In this document: positions 8,587 to 43,876 of the stretch, piece by piece | How the letters are laid out: each line of letters opens with the position of its first letter | Position numbering within the stretch: the stretch's first letter is position 1 | NCBI RefSeq assembly: GCF_900113225.1 | Contig: NZ_FOZE01000002.1 | Span: 1 to 64,000 of the forward strand | Source: Mitsuaria sp. PDC51 | GTDB taxonomy: Bacteria; Pseudomonadota; Gammaproteobacteria; Burkholderiales; Burkholderiaceae_C | Direction: 5' to 3' | Length of the DNA: 64,000 nt | Notes under the pieces: model-generated | The model's input: the letters and a program-made list of their open reading frames with translations, nothing else | Told to the model about the DNA's origin: nothing | The model's database searches: none | Position numbers and translations under genes: made by a program

Positions 8587-9855
8587 TCATTCATAACGCA
8601 GCGCCTCCGCCGGTTGGACGCGGCTGGCGCGCCAGCTCGGGTACAGCGTCGCGACGAACGCCAGGATCAGCGAGGTCACGGTGATCGGCACGATGTCCGA
8701 CCACTGCGGATCGCTCGGCATGTGGCTGATCACGTAGATGCTGGCCGGCAGGAAGGTGGTGTGCAGCAGCCGCTCGATGAAGGGGACGATCACGTCCAGG
8801 TTGTGCGCGACCACCAGGCCCAGGCCCAGGCCGCCCAGCGTGCCGATCACGCCGGCCAGCGCGCCCTGGATCATGAACACGCCCATGATCGAGCGCGGAC
8901 TCGCGCCCAGCGTGCGCAGGATCGCGATGTCAGCCTGCTTGTCGGTCACCGTCATCACCAGCGTCGACACCAGGTTGAAGGCCGCGACCGCCACGATCAG
9001 GGTCAGGATGATGCCCATCATCCGCTTCTCGACCTGGACCGCGTCGTACCAGTTCGCGTTGGTGCGGGTCCAGTCGCGCACGTAGATGGCGCGGCCGTCC
9101 TGCAGCATCTGGCGCTGCAACTGGGCGCCGACCTCGCGCGCCTGCTGGACGTCGCGCAGCTTCAGCTGCACGCCGCTCGGCGTGCCGGTGCGGAAGACCT
9201 TGGCGGCGTCGGCCACATGGATCAGCGCCAGGCCGCTGTCGTACTCGTAGTGACCCGCCTCGAAGACACCCACCAGCGTGAACTGGCGCAGCGTCGGCTG
9301 CACGCCCAGCGGCGTCACCTGGCCCGAAGGAATCGCCAGCGTGATCTTGTCGCCCCGCTGCACGCCCAATTGACGCGCGAGTTCCACGCCCAGGATCACG
9401 TTCCACTGGCCAGGCACCAGGCGCGCCAGCAAACCCTCCTTCGCCAGCTCCGCCGCGATCGGCGTCACCCCCGGCTCGAAGGCCGGGTCGATGCCACGCA
9501 CGATCGTCCCGCGCATGTCGGAACCGCGCGCAATCAACGCCTGGCCCGCGACGAACGGCGCGGCGGCAACCACCTCGGGATTCTTCTTTGCAGCGTCGGC
9601 GACGGAGCGCCAGTCCGGCAAACCCTCGCCGCTGTCGTTCAGCAACTCCACGTGCGCGATCACCGACAACATCCGCGAACGCACCTCCTTCTGGAAGCCG
9701 TTCATCACCGAGAGCACGATGATCAACGCAGCAACACCCAGCGCGATGCCAAACATCGACACGCCAGAAATGAAGGAGATGAAGCGGTTGCGGCGCCCCC
9801 CTCGCCCAGCTCGCGTGTAGCGCCAGCCGATCTGCAACTCATAGGGCCAATTCAT
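8587..9855 (-). CDS. lolC: LolC/LolE-family lipoprotein-releasing permease
   Basis: Inner-membrane permease with the LolC/E layout: one N-terminal transmembrane helix (around residues 35-50, [19 protein letters not shown]), a large periplasmic domain, and three C-terminal helices (FtsX domain). It is 422 residues, normal for the family, with the [14 protein letters not shown] beginning typical of LolC/E. Only one permease gene accompanies lolD, which suggests a homodimeric LolF-type arrangement rather than LolC plus LolE; that is inference, since a second copy could lie elsewhere. Confidence 0.92.
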
Positions 9856-9918
9856 AGGGGGTGGATGCTAACCGCTCCCTTTCGGCTGAGCGCTTAGGGG
9901 AGGCTGATGAGCGACGGC

Positions 9919-10062
9919 TTGCGGAACAGGCCCGAGGCCGTCGGCGCCGCTCGCAGGGCGCCAACTCGCTCCGCTCACCTGCGGTTCGCTTTGCTCGGAC
10001 AGACGGCGCCCCAGTCAGTTCTGGAAGCTCGCAGCACCAACGGCCTCGGGCCTGTTCCGCAA
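9919..10062. repeat. Large hairpin repeat, copy A (variable 23-bp arms, conserved core)
   Basis: A perfect 23-bp inverted repeat (9919-9941 with 10040-10062) encloses a 98-nt loop. The centre of the loop, about 9956-10021, matches about 58 of 64 positions of the element at 41657-41722. Inside it GGGCGCC (9956-9962) pairs with GGCGCCC (10005-10011). It fills the gap between the end of polA and the start of lolC, both minus strand, so it would be transcribed at the polA 3' end. Role unknown; termination, mRNA stabilisation or a small mobile palindrome are possible. Confidence 0.75.
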
Positions 10063-10120
10063 CCCGCGATGCACCGAGCCGCCCCCCTGCGTCGGCAGGG
10101 CGCGTCGTCAGCGCTCCCCG

Positions 10121-12898
10121 TCAGTGCGCCTCGTCCCAGTTGGCGCCGACACCCACTTCGGCCAGCAGCGGCACCTTCAGCGCCGCGACGCCAGCCATCA
10201 ACGTCGGCACCTCGGACTTCACCCAGTCCAGTTCCTCGTCCGGCACCTCGAAGACCAGCTCGTCATGCACCTGCATCACGATGCGCGTCTTCTTCGCCTG
10301 CTCATCCAGCGCCTGCTGCACCGCGATCATCGCCAGCTTGATCAGATCCGCCGCCGTGCCCTGCATCGGCGCGTTGATCGCCTGGCGCTCGGCGCCGCTG
10401 CGCCGCGGTCCGTTGCCTGAATTGATCTCCGGCAGCCACAGCCGGCGACCGAAGACCGTCTCCACATAGCCCTTCGCCTTGGCGAATTGCTTGGTGTCGT
10501 CCATGTACTGGCGCACGCCGGCGAAACGGGTGAAGTAGCGGTCGATGTAATCCTTCGCGGCCTTCTGCTCGATGCCCAGCGATTGCGCCAGCCCGAAGGC
10601 GCCCATGCCGTAGATCAGGCCGAAATTGATCGTCTTGGCATAACGGCGCTGCTCCGGCGTGACCCCGTCCAGCCCGCCCCCGAAGACCTCCGCCGCCGTC
10701 GCCCGGTGCACGTCCTGGCCCTCCTGGAAAGCCTTGAGCAGGCCCGGGTCCTCGCTCATGTGCGCCATGATCCGCAGCTCGATCTGCGAGTAGTCCGCCG
10801 ACACGATCACATGGCCCGGCGGCGCGATGAAGGCCTCGCGCACGCGACGGCCGTCCGCCGTGCGGATCGGAATGTTCTGCAGGTTGGGCTCGTTGCTCGA
10901 CAGCCGCCCCGTCACCGCCACTGCCTGCGAGTAGGTCGTGTGCACCCGCCCCGTCTTCGCGTTGACCATCAGCGGCAGCTTGTCGGTGTAGGTGCTCTTG
11001 AGCTTGGACAGCGCGCGGTACTCGAGGATCTTGGCCGGCAGCGGGAAGTCCGCCGACAGCTTCTCCAGCACCTCCTCGTCGGTGGACGGCGCGCCAGTGG
11101 CGGTGCGCTTGACCACCGGCAGGCCCAGGCGGTTGAACAGGATCTCGCCGATCTGCTTGGGCGAGCCGATGTTGAAGGGCTGGCCGGCGATCTCGTAGGC
11201 CGCCTGCTCGGCGGCCACCATGCGCTGGCCCAGGTCGGCGCTCTGCGCCTGCAGCTTGGCCGCGTCGATCAGCACGCCGGTGCGCTCGATGCGCGCCAGC
11301 AGCGCCGACACCGGCATCTCGACCTGCTCGTAGATGAACTTCAGTCCCGCATCCGCCTCCAGCCGCGGCAGCAGCGTCTGGTGCACATGCAGGCACATCT
11401 CGGAGTCCTCGCAGGAATACTCCGAGGCCTTCGCCACCTCGACCTGCGCGAACGGGATCTGGTGCGCGCCCTTGCCGCACAGGTCCTCGTAGCTCAGCCC
11501 CTTGCGACCCAGCACGCGGTCGGCCAGCGCCTCCAGGCCGTGGCTGCGATGCGCCTCCAGCACATAGCTCTCGAGCATCGTGTCGTAGGCCGTGCCCTGC
11601 ACGGCGATGCCGTGGTTGGCCAGCACGTGGGTGTCGTACTTGACGTTCTGGGCGACCTTCTTCTTCAGCGGATCCTCGAACCACGGCTTCAGGCGGGCGA
11701 GCACCTCGTCCATCGGCAGCTGCTCGGGCGCGTCGGGGCCTTCGTGGCGCAGCGGGATGTAGGCCGCCTCGCCCGGCTTGACGCTGAAGCTGATGCCGAC
11801 GATGCGCGCCTGCATCGGGTCGAGCGAATCGGTCTCGGTGTCGAAAGCGGCCAGCTCCGCCGCGTTCAGCTGCTCGATCCAGGCGTCCAGGCGCGACAGG
11901 TCGACGATGGTCTCGTAGCGCTTGTCCACGGGGATCGCGGGATGAGCATGCTGCGCGAACGCGTCGGCCGCGGGCGCGCCGCCGAGGTCCGCCTCGGGCG
12001 CGACGCGCTTGGGCGCCTCGCCGCCGAGACGGGCTTCCAGGTCGCGCTTCCAGGTCTTGAAGCCGTTGCGCGCGTAGAACTCCAGCAGGCCCGCCTCGTC
12101 GACCGGGTTGAAGGCGAGCGCCTCCAGCGCCGGCCAGCCGGTCACGTGCAGGCACAGGTCGCAATCGACCTTGACGGTCACCAGCTTGCGGCCCATCGGC
12201 AGCCAGTCCAGCGCCTTGCGCAGGTTGTCGCCGGCCACGCCCTTGATCTTGTCGGCGTTGGCGATGACGCCGTCCAGCGAGCCATGCTCGCCGATCCACT
12301 TGGCCGCGGTCTTGGGGCCGACCTTCTCGACGCCGGGCACGTTGTCGACCGTGTCGCCCATCAGCGTCAGGTAGTCGATGATCCGGTCCGGCGGGACGCC
12401 GAACTTGGCCACGACGCCGGCCTCGTCCAGCTTCTCGTTGCTCATCGTGTTGATCAGCGAGACATCCGGCGTCACCAGCTGCGCCAGGTCCTTGTCGCCG
12501 GTCGAGATCACCACCTGGTGACCCGCCTGCGCCGCCACCCGCGACAGCGTGCCGATGCAGTCGTCCGCCTCGATGCCGGGCACGGTCAGCACCGGCCAGC
12601 CCAGCAGCTTCACCACTTCATGGATCGGGTCGATCTGCGCCCGCAGGTCGTCGGGCATCGGGGCGCGCTGGGCCTTGTACTCGGGGTACCACTCGTCGCG
12701 GAAGGTCGGGCCGGAGGCGTCGAAGACGCAGGCAGCGTGCTCGGCGCCGTAGTCGTCGCGCAGCTTCTTCAGCATCGCCACCATGCCGTGGATGGCGCCG
12801 GTGGGCTGGCCCTCGGGCCCGCGCAGGTCGGGCATGGCGTGATAGGCGCGATAGAGGTAGCTGGAACCGTCGACCAGCAGCATCAGAGGTTTGCTCAT
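10121..12898 (-). CDS. polA: DNA polymerase I
   Basis: Gap-filling and Okazaki-fragment-maturation polymerase, 925 residues, full length. Three domains are present. The 5'-3' exonuclease begins at the N-terminus (MLLVDGSSYLYRAYHA) with GIEADDCIGTL. The 3'-5' proofreading domain keeps its catalytic acidic pair (FDTETDSL, about residue 350). The family A polymerase domain has motif A SADYSQIELRIMAH (about 700), motif B around RRYAKTINFGLIYG, and motif C VHDELVFEV (about 878). The start at 12898 (MSKPLML) is the family start; the frame stays open upstream but overlaps the divergent DUF2782 gene. Confidence 0.97.
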   Translation of the reverse strand: MSKPLMLLVDGSSYLYRAYHAMPDLRGPEGQPTGAIHGMVAMLKKLRDDYGAEHAACVFDASGPTFRDEWYPEYKAQRAPMPDDLRAQIDPIHEVVKLLGWPVLTVPGIEADDCIGTLSRVAAQAGHQVVISTGDKDLAQLVTPDVSLINTMSNEKLDEAGVVAKFGVPPDRIIDYLTLMGDTVDNVPGVEKVGPKTAAKWIGEHGSLDGVIANADKIKGVAGDNLRKALDWLPMGRKLVTVKVDCDLCLHVTGWPALEALAFNPVDEAGLLEFYARNGFKTWKRDLEARLGGEAPKRVAPEADLGGAPAADAFAQHAHPAIPVDKRYETIVDLSRLDAWIEQLNAAELAAFDTETDSLDPMQARIVGISFSVKPGEAAYIPLRHEGPDAPEQLPMDEVLARLKPWFEDPLKKKVAQNVKYDTHVLANHGIAVQGTAYDTMLESYVLEAHRSHGLEALADRVLGRKGLSYEDLCGKGAHQIPFAQVEVAKASEYSCEDSEMCLHVHQTLLPRLEADAGLKFIYEQVEMPVSALLARIERTGVLIDAAKLQAQSADLGQRMVAAEQAAYEIAGQPFNIGSPKQIGEILFNRLGLPVVKRTATGAPSTDEEVLEKLSADFPLPAKILEYRALSKLKSTYTDKLPLMVNAKTGRVHTTYSQAVAVTGRLSSNEPNLQNIPIRTADGRRVREAFIAPPGHVIVSADYSQIELRIMAHMSEDPGLLKAFQEGQDVHRATAAEVFGGGLDGVTPEQRRYAKTINFGLIYGMGAFGLAQSLGIEQKAAKDYIDRYFTRFAGVRQYMDDTKQFAKAKGYVETVFGRRLWLPEINSGNGPRRSGAERQAINAPMQGTAADLIKLAMIAVQQALDEQAKKTRIVMQVHDELVFEVPDEELDWVKSEVPTLMAGVAALKVPLLAEVGVGANWDEAH

Positions 12899-40074: not shown

Positions 40075-41589
40075 ATGACGCAAGCGCAAGTTCCTCCGAT
40101 CCTGGCCGCCATCGACATGGGCTCCAACAGCTTCCGGCTCGAGCTGGCCCAGCTGCAGCACGGGCACTACCGCCGGCTGGACTACCTGAAGGAAACGGTG
40201 CGGCTGGGCGCGGGCCTGGATGCGATGAGCATGCTGACCGAAGAGGCAGCCCAGCGCGGCCTGGACTGCCTGCGGCGCTTCGCCGAGCGGCTCGCCGACC
40301 TGCCCGGCCGCCAGGTGCGCGCGGTGGCGACGCAGACGCTGCGTGAGGCGCGCAACCGCAACGCCTTCCTGGCGCGGGCGCAGGAGGTGCTGGGCCATCC
40401 GATCGAAGTCATCTCGGGCCGAGAGGAAGCGCGCCTGATCTACGCGGGCGTGGCGCGGCTGCAGACCGCGGAAGACCCCCGCCTGGTCATCGACATCGGC
40501 GGCCGATCCACCGAGATGATCCTGGGCCGCGGGCCGCAGCCGCTGGCCGCCGAGTCCTTCCAGATCGGCAGCGTCAGCCTCTCGATGCGCTTCTTCCCCG
40601 ACGGCCGCTTCACCGCCGAGGCCTTCCGCGCCGCGCAGGTCGCCGCAGGCGCCGAGCTCGAGGAAGCCATCACCCAGTTCTCCCGCCAAGCCGCGCAGCC
40701 GCGCTGGAAGCAGGCCCTGGGCTCGTCGGGCACCGTCGGCGCGGTGGCCCAGATCCTCGCGGCGAACAACGTCAGCCCCGACGGCTCCATCACCCTCGAC
40801 GGCCTGCGCTGGTGCATCGAGCAGTGCCTGCTCGCCGGGCGCATCGACGCGCTCAAGCTGCCCGGCCTCAAGGACGACCGGCGCGCCGTCGTCGGCGGCG
40901 GACTCTGCATCCTCTACACGCTGCTCACCCACTTCGACATCGAGCGCCTCCACCCCGCCAAGGGCGCGCTGCGCCAAGGCGTCATCTTCGACCTCGCCGA
41001 GCGCCTCGACCCCCGCCTGCTCGCCGCCGGGCGCGACATGCGCGAACAGTCCGTCGCCGAACTCCAGCGCCGCTTCGCCGTCGACCGCGATCAGGCCGGC
41101 CGCGTCCAGCAGATCGCCCAGCGGCTTCATGCGCAGCTCGCGCCGAAAGCCGAGGAAGAACATCGCCGCGAACTCGGCTGGGCCGCCGCGCTGCATGAGA
41201 TCGGCATGATGGTCTCCCACCATGACCACCATCGCCACAGCGCCTACCTGCTCTCCCACGTCGACGCGCCAGGCTTCTCCCAAAATCAGCTCCGGCGCCT
41301 CGGAGACCTCGCGCTCGGTCAGCGGGGAGGACTCCGCAAGCTCGAAGAACAGCTCCAGGAAGAACCCATGATCTGGCAGCTGCTGGCGTTGCGACTCGCC
41401 GCCATCAAATGCCACGCGCGCAGCGAGGTCGACGCGACAGCCATCAAGCTGCGGCGCGAAGGGATGAACGTCATCATCGAAATGCGCAAGGGCTGGGCCG
41501 AAGCACATCCGCGGGCGCATTACCTGCTGCGCGAAGAATTGGACGCGTGGGGCAAGGTCGGGCGTGTGCAGTTGGCGTTGGAGGCTTGA
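40075..41589 (+). CDS. ppx: Exopolyphosphatase / Ppx-GppA family
   Basis: Degrades polyphosphate from its ends (and possibly pppGpp). The 504-residue protein has an ASKHA N-terminal fold with DMGSNSFRLELAQ (residues about 14-26) and the phosphate-binding DIGGRSTEMILG. Its C-terminal HD-like domain has HEIGMMVSHHDHHRHSAYL. The start at 40075 (MTQAQVPP) is preferred to an in-frame ATG 54 bp upstream for fit to relatives. It is convergent with ppk; the hairpin repeat copy B lies between them. Confidence 0.94.
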   Translation: MTQAQVPPILAAIDMGSNSFRLELAQLQHGHYRRLDYLKETVRLGAGLDAMSMLTEEAAQRGLDCLRRFAERLADLPGRQVRAVATQTLREARNRNAFLARAQEVLGHPIEVISGREEARLIYAGVARLQTAEDPRLVIDIGGRSTEMILGRGPQPLAAESFQIGSVSLSMRFFPDGRFTAEAFRAAQVAAGAELEEAITQFSRQAAQPRWKQALGSSGTVGAVAQILAANNVSPDGSITLDGLRWCIEQCLLAGRIDALKLPGLKDDRRAVVGGGLCILYTLLTHFDIERLHPAKGALRQGVIFDLAERLDPRLLAAGRDMREQSVAELQRRFAVDRDQAGRVQQIAQRLHAQLAPKAEEEHRRELGWAAALHEIGMMVSHHDHHRHSAYLLSHVDAPGFSQNQLRRLGDLALGQRGGLRKLEEQLQEEPMIWQLLALRLAAIKCHARSEVDATAIKLRREGMNVIIEMRKGWAEAHPRAHYLLREELDAWGKVGRVQLALEA

Positions 41590-41625
41590 AGGCAATGCGC
41601 TGACTGCAGGCGGGTGAGCGCGACA

Positions 41626-41759
41626 GGCATGGCCTGGGCCGGCGACTCGCGTCGGGCGGACGCCAACTCGCTCTGCTCACCTGCGGTTCGCGACGCTCAG
41701 ACAGACGGCGTCCAAGTCAGTCATCCAGCCCGACACGAGTCGCCGGCCCAGGCCATGCC
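41626..41759. repeat. Large hairpin repeat, copy B (variable 24-bp arms, conserved core)
   Basis: A perfect 24-bp inverted repeat (41626-41649 with 41736-41759), extended inward by 7 more pairs after one mismatch, encloses the same core as copy A at 9956-10021. The core runs about 41657-41722 with about 58 of 64 identical. The inner stem GGACGCC/GGCGTCC differs from copy A's GGGCGCC/GGCGCCC by a compensatory pair. It lies between the convergent ppx and ppk, where it could terminate both. Confidence 0.78.
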
Positions 41760-41815
41760 CGTCCAGGAACAGAGGTGGACGGCGTGGGGGTGGCGTGAAC
41801 CTCGCGGGGACTTGG

Positions 41816-43876
41816 TCAGGGGTCCTCGTGGTACAGGCGCATCAGGGCTTGTTGCGCGCTGACGTGCAGCGGGGAATCCTCGGTGCCAATGCGCTGCGAG
41901 GTGCCGTCCGGGCCCAGTTGCCACGCGTCCAGACTGTCGTGCAGGTAGGGGGTCAGGCCCTCGTCGATGACGCGCTGGCGCAGCTTCGGATCAGTGATCG
42001 GCCAGGCCACCTCGATGCGACGCAACATGTTGCGCGCCATCCAGTCCGCGCTCGACAGGTACAAGGCCTCCTGCTCCTCCTTGCCCCAGCGGAAATAAAA
42101 GATCCGCGAGTGCTCGAGGAAGCGGCCCACCACCGAGCGCACCAGGATGTTGTCCGTCTCGCCCGGCAGGCCCGGCGGCAACATGCACGCGCCGCGCACG
42201 ATCAGGTCCACCTTCGCGCCCGCGCGGCCCGCCCGCACGATCCCGTTGATGAGCTCCGCATCAGTCAGCGCATTGATCTTCAGCACCACCCGCGCCGGCT
42301 CGCCACGCCGCGCGGCCTCCTCCACCTGCGACAGCAGCTCGACCATCGTCCGGTGCAGGTTGAACGGCGCGAGCAGCAGCTTCTTCGGCGCCTTGAACTT
42401 CGACAGGGACGCCAACTGGCGGAACACCAGATCCATGTCCGCCGTCATCTCGGCATCGGCCGTCAGGTAGCCGAGGTCCGTGTAGAAACGCGCCGTCTTC
42501 GGGTTGTAGTTGCCGGTCGACAGGTGGCCGTAACGCCGCAGCTTGCCGCCCTCCCGGCGGGTGATCAGCATCAGCTTGGCATGCGTCTTCAGGCCGACGA
42601 TGCCGTACACCACCTGTGCACCGACCGCCTCCAGCCGCTCCGCCCAGTTGATGTTGGCCTCCTCGTCGAAGCGCGCTTTCAGCTCGACGACCGCGAGGAC
42701 CTCCTTGCCGCGGCGCGCCGCCTCGATCAGCAGGTCCGCCAGCACCGACTGGCTGCCGGTGCGGTAGATCGTCTGCTTGATGGCCAGGACGTCCGGATCC
42801 TCGACCGCCTCGCGCAGCAGCTGCACCACCGGCTCGAAGCTCTCGAACGGGTGATGCAGCATCACGTCGCCCTTGGTCCGCAGCTTGTCCAGGATCGACT
42901 TGCCCCGTGGCAGCCGCCCGGTCGGCCAACTCGGTTCATAGGGCCGGAAACGCAGGTCCTCGGCATCAGTCTGGTCGATCAGCTCGTTCAGGCGCACCAG
43001 GTTGACCGGCCCGTTGACCCGGTACAGCGCCGCCTCCGGCAGGTCGAATTGCTCCAGCAGGAAGCGCGAGAGTTCCTCGGGGCAGGTGTTGACCACCTCG
43101 AGCCGCACCGCGCGCCCGAAGTGACGCGTCGTGAGGCCCGAGCGCAGCGCATGCCGCAGGTTGGCGATCTCTTCCTCGTCGACCTCCAGGTCCGAATCCC
43201 GCGTGACGCGGAACTGCGAGAACGCCTCGACATGCCGGCCGGGGAACAGCTCCTCGAGGTGGGCGCGGATGACGCTGGTGAGCAGGACGAAGCTCTGCTT
43301 GCCGCCGCTGATCGCCGCCGGCACCTTGATCACGCGCGGCAGCACGCGCGGGACCTTGACGATGGCAATGCGGTTGTCGCGTCCGAGCGCGTCCTTGCCC
43401 GACAGCCGCGCGATGAAGTGCAGCGACTTGTTGGCCACCTGCGGGAACGGATGCGCCGGGTCCAGGCCCACCGGCACCAGCAGCGGCCGCACTTCCCGCT
43501 CGAAGAACCTGCTGACCCACGCGCGGATCTCGTCGGTGCGGTCGGCGTGGTTGAGGATCTGGATGTTGTGCTCGCGCAGGGCGGGCATGACCTGGTCGTT
43601 GAAGATCGCGTACTGCTGGTCGATCAGGTCATGGGCCGCGCGCCCGACGCGCTCCACGTCGCGCGGCGTCACCAGACCGCTGCCGTCCCGCTGCGCATCG
43701 AGCATGTCGGCGAAGCGCACCTCGAAGAACTCGTCGAGGTTGCTGGACACGATGCAGATGTAGCGCAGCCGCTCCAGCAGCGGCACGTCGACGCGCTGGG
43801 CCTGCGCCAGGACACGCCGGTTGAACTCGAGGATCGCGTTTTCGCGGTTGAGCAGCGGGACATCGGGCAAAGTCAT
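41816..43876 (-). CDS. ppk: Polyphosphate kinase 1
   Basis: Makes polyphosphate from ATP reversibly at the membrane. The 686-residue protein has the full PPK1 set of domains: an N domain (LEFNRRVLAQAQ, SSNLDEFFEVR), a head domain, and C1/C2 domains with the phosphorylated-His region THAKLMLITRR and GHLSTGNYN. The ATG at 43876 fits the family start but has no ribosome site. A -10 (TAGAAT) ends 6 nt before it, so the mRNA is predicted to be leaderless, preceded by a candidate Pho box. Confidence 0.96.
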   Translation of the reverse strand: MTLPDVPLLNRENAILEFNRRVLAQAQRVDVPLLERLRYICIVSSNLDEFFEVRFADMLDAQRDGSGLVTPRDVERVGRAAHDLIDQQYAIFNDQVMPALREHNIQILNHADRTDEIRAWVSRFFEREVRPLLVPVGLDPAHPFPQVANKSLHFIARLSGKDALGRDNRIAIVKVPRVLPRVIKVPAAISGGKQSFVLLTSVIRAHLEELFPGRHVEAFSQFRVTRDSDLEVDEEEIANLRHALRSGLTTRHFGRAVRLEVVNTCPEELSRFLLEQFDLPEAALYRVNGPVNLVRLNELIDQTDAEDLRFRPYEPSWPTGRLPRGKSILDKLRTKGDVMLHHPFESFEPVVQLLREAVEDPDVLAIKQTIYRTGSQSVLADLLIEAARRGKEVLAVVELKARFDEEANINWAERLEAVGAQVVYGIVGLKTHAKLMLITRREGGKLRRYGHLSTGNYNPKTARFYTDLGYLTADAEMTADMDLVFRQLASLSKFKAPKKLLLAPFNLHRTMVELLSQVEEAARRGEPARVVLKINALTDAELINGIVRAGRAGAKVDLIVRGACMLPPGLPGETDNILVRSVVGRFLEHSRIFYFRWGKEEQEALYLSSADWMARNMLRRIEVAWPITDPKLRQRVIDEGLTPYLHDSLDAWQLGPDGTSQRIGTEDSPLHVSAQQALMRLYHEDP

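Follow-up and report, generated by a model that had tools for sequence, protein, structure and literature searches.

Palindromic repeats are generally regarded as a property of double-stranded DNA. ERIC, NEMIS/Correia and comparable intergenic palindromes are dispersed, do not code, and are often transcribed with the neighbouring genes. REP sequences and REPINs, which go with RAYT (Y1) transposases, form inverted pairs of hairpins and are dispersed non-autonomously. The attC sites of integrons are imperfect palindromes, which function as one folded strand of a given polarity. Compared by description, the hairpin family reported here resembles ERIC and NEMIS/Correia as a set of dispersed non-coding palindromes, but its arms vary while the core and the pairing are kept, on one strand. 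With REP/REPIN it shares the inverted hairpin pairs and the non-autonomous dispersal, and with attC the imperfect palindrome and the one-strand polarity. In attC, however, the ends are kept and the middle varies, whereas the hairpin family keeps the middle.

The only plausible relative found in the open-licence literature searched is the Beta-proteobacterial repeat element (BRE), a repeat of about 90 bp, with a copy at B. pertussis 3605317–3605401 (Hot et al., 2011, PMC3110155). In the parts of that paper drawn on here, the BRE hosts are Bordetella and Comamonadaceae, and the richer of the tabulated genomes have 8 to 29 copies. The BRE is mostly intergenic, is suspected to be mobile, and sometimes stands in tandem with no or few bases between the copies. 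None of the 13 Bordetella loci in Table 3 of the paper lies between divergent genes, one BRE locus is an expressed small RNA, and a locus beside lexA is given in Bordetella. The paper also names repeats of the ERIC and NEMIS/Correia type. The hairpin family is like the BRE, as far as those parts describe it, in its Burkholderiales hosts, copy number, intergenic position, absence from divergent gaps and suspected mobility. It is likewise intergenic and dispersed over several betaproteobacterial genera (64 of 141 genera; 0 of 75 units inside a gene). Unlike the hairpin family, the BRE is described there without arms, fold, strand or composite architecture. By a comparison of descriptions only, the BRE may be the same family.

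No account of a one-strand fold, arm covariation and composite architecture was found in the open-licence literature searched. PMC5217627, in the part drawn on, describes other motifs, and the main text of PMC12306157 contains none of the six taxon names sought. The Rfam search of the window (the whole stretch of 64,000 nucleotides from Mitsuaria sp. PDC51) gave 0 matches at the curated gathering score. A lax Rfam search of four loci gave five matches, all below gathering, including a plant microRNA model that overlaps copy B at 33.1 bits, against the 90 needed. The preliminary description had placed the hairpin in no named family; this stands for Rfam at the gathering score in the window, and is uncertain with regard to the BRE.

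The features are collected in Table 1. Strand F, used throughout, is opposite to the strand on which the core was first described. The inverted repeats of the window were listed with arms of at least 18 nt and a spacing of at most 300 nt; seven were found, and only copies A and B have non-overlapping arms of at least 30 nt. The 23-bp inverted repeat reported for copy A is exact (9919–9941 is the reverse complement of 10040–10062), and it sits inside arms of 36 nt, 80 nt apart. The arms of both copies had been taken as perfectly self-complementary. This is correct for the 23 bp of copy A, but the full 36-nt arms are 89% complementary in copy A and 94% in copy B (41622–41657 and 41728–41763). 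The near identity of the core to that at 41657–41722 is borne out, at 88% across 64 nt. The minus strand of copy A folds at −112.4 kcal/mol (z −9.67), and none of 200 shuffles was as good; the plus strand folds at −93.5 kcal/mol (z −8.33). For the minus strand of copy B the values are −115.9 kcal/mol and z −13.33. In copy A the minus-strand helix is lengthened by G.U pairs, whereas the plus-strand arms are imperfect past 23 bp.

Table 1. Hairpin units and neighbouring genes in the window
Feature	Position	Strand	Basis or remark
Copy A, whole hairpin unit	9915..10066	−	F strand is the minus strand, sense of polA; inverted repeat, folds, strand counts
Copy A, 5' arm on F	10031..10066	−	Inverted-repeat listing
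Copy A, 3' arm on F	9915..9950	−	Inverted-repeat listing
Copy A, inner stem P2 around core	9957..10010 (9957–9962 with 10005–10010)	−	Model match 9953–10023, alignment columns
Copy A, conserved 37-nt core with covarying 2-bp GC steps	9963..9999	−	Core alignment
Flanking motif ACCGAGC beside copy A	10073..10079	+	Fixed distances in 20 of 37 compact units
Copy B, whole hairpin unit	41622..41763	−	F strand is the minus strand, sense of ppk
Copy B, conserved 37-nt core	41665..41701	−	Pattern and covariance-model matches
polA (DNA polymerase I)	10121..12883	−	Stop codon 54 nt before copy A on minus strand
MacB_PCD/FtsX permease gene, after copy A	8587..9855	−	Longest frame; gene caller starts it at 9726; presumably LolC/E-like
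ppx (Ppx/GppA phosphatase)	40075..41589	+	Convergent with ppk towards copy B
ppk (polyphosphate kinase)	41816..43876	−	Stop codon 52 nt before copy B on minus strand

The core pattern matches the Roseateles-type genome of Mitsuaria sp. PDC51 at six copies, all in long hairpins. A covariance model of the core finds nine copies with E values no higher than 1.4e-14, and the match after these has E 0.06; seven strong copies thus exist beyond A and B. Further copies of the core are therefore present, and all six pattern copies carry long arms, in line with the preliminary description. Exact-pattern matches were found in Roseateles, Mitsuaria, Ideonella, a Rubrivivax MAG and beta-proteobacterial MAGs, and 13 of 16 genomes of the genus have a match, the window genome included. 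The sites at polA and at ppk are each occupied by a unit in 6 of the 16 genomes, in a single orientation at each site. In the other genomes the unit is missing from the site; in genome G008 the polA gap is short, with no hairpin remnant visible. A plasmid search with copy A gave only one match, at 247,122–247,250 of a 262,673-base record from Mitsuaria sp. 7.

The arms of copies A and B had been described as sharing no sequence. Most pairs of copies indeed look unrelated, A and B among them, with a median arm identity of 0.375 across 36 compact units, the compact and larger classes being split by a short motif that misfiles L032 (compact, counted as larger) and L079 (of another genus, counted as compact). 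The arms are nevertheless homologous and have diverged. Orthologous copies at the polA and ppk sites align through their arms, and two copies of the window genome at different loci (L002 and L003) have most of their arms in common. Judged from these sequences, the dissimilarity of the arms is the end state of divergence and not independence. Comparison shows that arms and core are a single unit, which is inherited and spreads as a whole. The shared arms at different loci and the sites lacking a unit indicate that A and B are old copies with arms that have drifted under pairing; they are not a core set into unrelated hairpins.

With a cut-off of E 0.01, the core model matches 85 of the 200 genomes sampled from the family, and these matches cover 64 of 141 genera. 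In a draw across the class, 3 of 369 genomes match at E up to 1e-4, and these are the window genome, a further member of the family and a genome from another family. In the genome of the other family (G435, locus L213), weaker, shortened cores stand in inverted pairs. By eye, inverted pairs are many among the matches listed. The composite of genome G111 has a total length of about 520 bp and consists of an X-armed unit, 47 bp and a Y-armed unit. Eighteen G111 loci were read; eight have all four arm ends at the standard spacing, three of these eight in the inverse order, and three more loci have the four arm ends with one unit shortened or lengthened. The composites occur in both orientations at many loci, and their ends are defined; by eye, the printed flanks contain no clear target duplication. 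The inverted two-unit composites of the relatives are apparently mobile. A plasmid search with the G111 composite and a phage search with the paired unit of G020 gave no match.

In G020, G091 and G133, ORFs are present between paired units; by eye, no transposase was found among the ORFs of L120, L122, L123, L124, L125 and L173. In L120 (G020) a membrane-protein-like ORF (1556–2741) lies between two near-identical inverted units with common outer arms, and it is possibly gene cargo. In G134 the cores stand in direct tandem (L133, L132) beside inverted copies, and in L133 they abut (1559–1625 and 1626–1693); abutting tandem cores were not seen in the window genome. With the BRE locus beside lexA in mind, the lexA neighbourhood was searched (44 matches in 37 genomes, 30 loci examined), and units were found in G111 only. 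There a composite lies near lexA (L238 and L142).

The gap that holds copy A separates the end of polA from the start of an FtsX-type permease gene on the same, minus strand; copy B lies between the convergent genes ppx and ppk. With gene calls in the relatives made by a caller trained on the window, 75 non-redundant units were placed as 31 convergent, 37 codirectional, 0 divergent and 7 unplaced, and none lies inside a called gene; in the window itself, 10 of 25 gaps longer than 100 bp are divergent. The comparison of loci shows that the units sit by the predicted 3' ends of genes, with none seen between divergent genes. The orientation count covers 74 of 101 units, those whose loci are 2,500 bases or longer. 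Of 37 compact units, 35 (16 of 18 loci) are preceded on F by a gene that runs in the F sense. At codirectional loci only, compact units are F-sense in 7 and antisense in 2, which is suggestive only, and larger units have no orientation bias (8 sense, 9 antisense). In 20 of the 37 compact units, the motif ACCGAGC is present at −52 to −64 or at +105 to +114 relative to the core, against a chance expectation of about 0.03 per 150 nt. Its reverse complement never occurs at fixed distances around the 37 compact units. In the window ACCGAGC occurs 13 times, and the one intergenic occurrence is that beside copy A.

By its location the unit could be an ordinary intrinsic terminator, bidirectional and with a large loop. 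The units begin 54 and 52 nt past the polA and ppk stop codons, and their contexts are only convergent or codirectional, both in favour of a terminator. An intrinsic terminator is a G+C-rich hairpin with a short loop followed by a T-run, however, and 0 terminator-like sites were found at copies A and B, which upholds the earlier statement that the hairpin is no standard terminator. A terminator also does not need a conserved 37-nt core, and by eye the T-rich terminator-like sequence stands outside the G111 composites. Hence a terminator is very unlikely.

The core was aligned from 56 cores, 55 of them distinct. The 2-bp GC steps pair across the loop, helix 2 being paired in 99.1% and helix 3 in 98.2%; two-sided changes are present in both helices, and one-sided changes are not. 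Over the whole core structure, 46 cells are changed on both sides and the covariation score is 0.204; shuffles give 16.3 and 0.091, and none of 500 was as high on either measure. Further pair types are not in excess over shuffles (12 against 12.7; 399 of 500 shuffles were as high). Stem P2, in this alignment, reaches only 72.1% pairing. On F the stretches separating the GC steps take on an order: GA stands opposite GA at two sites and the loop is closed by CC/GG, each in 56 of 56 cores, an invariance partly built in because the copies were fetched by pattern; the 3' columns 43–47 lie outside that pattern. The ends of the 3×3 loop have G.A in 43 and A.G in 48 of the 56 cores. We take the G.A pairs to be sheared. 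The GA/GA motif is not universal, one of its two sites having other letters in the G111 composites.

The arms also covary. Among the six orthologous copies at the polA site, from six species, 36 arm column pairs comprise 18 two-sided Watson–Crick changes, 10 invariant pairs and 8 others, with GU in 10 cells and AC in 1. At the ppk site, 26 column pairs comprise 4 two-sided Watson–Crick changes, 17 invariant pairs and 5 others, with GU in 8 and AC in 2. Two-sided changes are thus found in the core, where they were tested against shuffles, and in the polA arms, and the covariation supports the earlier claim that the ability to fold, together with the core, is what is kept.

Two points missed by the preliminary description are that the fold is strand-specific and that the unit is one form of a broader family, which is apparently mobile. 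In 36 ungapped compact units of the 37 (one gapped unit was left out), the wobble mismatches on F are G.U in 37 distinct contexts and A.C in 3, the latter count being 3 or 0 according to the alignment settings. On the strand on which the core was first described, these are A.C in 37 contexts (43 cells) and G.T in 3. Were the contexts independent, the two-sided probability of a 37 to 3 split would be about 2e-8; they are only partly so, as the units are related by descent. In the larger units, one without the tail motif being left out, G.U against A.C on F is 54 to 12 contexts (59 to 21 cells) in the outer arms and 6 to 1 contexts in the inner stems; a cruder count, with one alignment per unit, gives 61 to 52 cells and hardly any bias. 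Of the 37 compact units 32 fold more stably on F, and of the 64 larger units 55. The comparison shows that pairing is kept on one strand only, which at copy A is the minus strand, the sense of polA.

The bias was also counted by the direction of the neighbouring genes. For compact units, G.U against A.C on F is 18 to 0 where both genes are sense, 21 to 0 where they are convergent and 2 to 0 where both are antisense (2 units). For larger units the counts are 15 to 6, 19 to 4 and 14 to 4. The folding constraint is thus independent of the direction of the neighbouring genes. As the bias is still present when both neighbours run antisense to F, a role as a 3'-UTR alone is insufficient, and a single DNA strand would also suit. 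The one-strand pairing suggests that the unit may work as a folded RNA or as a single strand of DNA.

The palindromes could instead be selfish repeats, useless to the host, with the arms made identical by template switching and the 3' location being the one of least harm. Their presence is indeed patchy, both among the genomes of the genus and at the polA and ppk sites, and they are never between divergent genes. Template switching, however, predicts no one-strand bias of G.U over A.C, and it leaves the compensatory GC steps inside the conserved core unexplained. We therefore regard the selfish repeat as improbable.

The main rival is that the F strand acts as folded single-stranded DNA, and that the units are ends of mobile elements or recombination sites whose hairpin is read by a recombinase. 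Integron attC sites and IS200/IS605 ends are recognised in such a manner, as hairpins on one strand. The strand bias that does not depend on gene direction, the inverted pairs and the composites in both orientations would all agree with this. Two core positions speak rather for RNA. Columns 25/33 and 13/45 pair on F in 56 of 56 cores, as GU 28, AU 26 and GC 2 at the former and UG 44 and CG 12 at the latter, and the other strand has A.C in 28 and 44 of the 56. RNA is favoured by these wobble-tolerant positions and by the 3', mostly F-sense location of the compact units; because the bias is still there in antisense context, single-stranded DNA stays in place as the main rival. By analogy with those hairpins, single-stranded DNA is a possible but rather unlikely reading.

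Y1 transposases bear on the same question. Y1_Tnp gave no match in six unit-bearing genomes. At 19 Y1 loci no unit was found at E up to 0.01, and one weak hit had E 0.07. A mover of the RAYT type (Y1) is thus not supported, which sets the family apart from REP/REPIN and weakens the single-stranded DNA reading.

With about even confidence, we prefer the reading that copy A is a compact, single-unit member of a dispersed, non-coding palindromic family of Burkholderiales, and that this family would be a non-autonomous mobile element, the F strand of which folds, probably as RNA, and which in Roseateles is retained at the 3' ends of genes. The working form would be a folded RNA. In Roseateles the unit would form the 3' end of the mRNA of the gene before it, polA for copy A and ppk for copy B. 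The long G+C-rich helix with its purine-motif core could then be a 3' barrier, for example against exonucleases, or a protein-binding site. Larger relatives, such as the G111 composite of about 520 bp, would be the form that moves, with an enzyme acting in trans, and the compact Roseateles units would mostly stay put.

More tentatively, and at less than even confidence, we propose that the family may represent an unrecognised class of mobile structured RNA, non-coding, the spread or retention of which would depend on a one-strand fold. This fold would be made of the covarying GC steps, the GA/GA and GNA/GNA motifs and the wobble-constrained pairs. The class would comprise single units at 3' ends and inverted two-unit composites, some with genes between the units, and the mover would read the fold. 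What matters here is that, as the comparison shows, one strand alone is under a folding constraint, even where the neighbouring genes run opposite. The action of such repeats, and perhaps their movement, as folded RNA or single-stranded DNA is thereby directly testable, and the presence of the family in 85 of 200 genomes of one bacterial family provides plentiful material for such tests.

Other hairpins were observed at the same gene ends. Downstream of polA, L182 (G014) and L193 (G001) have a different long hairpin that lacks the core and is likewise preceded by GACCGAGC; in L182 this hairpin is repeated in tandem. At the 3' end of ppk, L202 (G004) has another large palindrome without the core, and in L206 (G010) a hairpin-containing unit is repeated in tandem after ppk.
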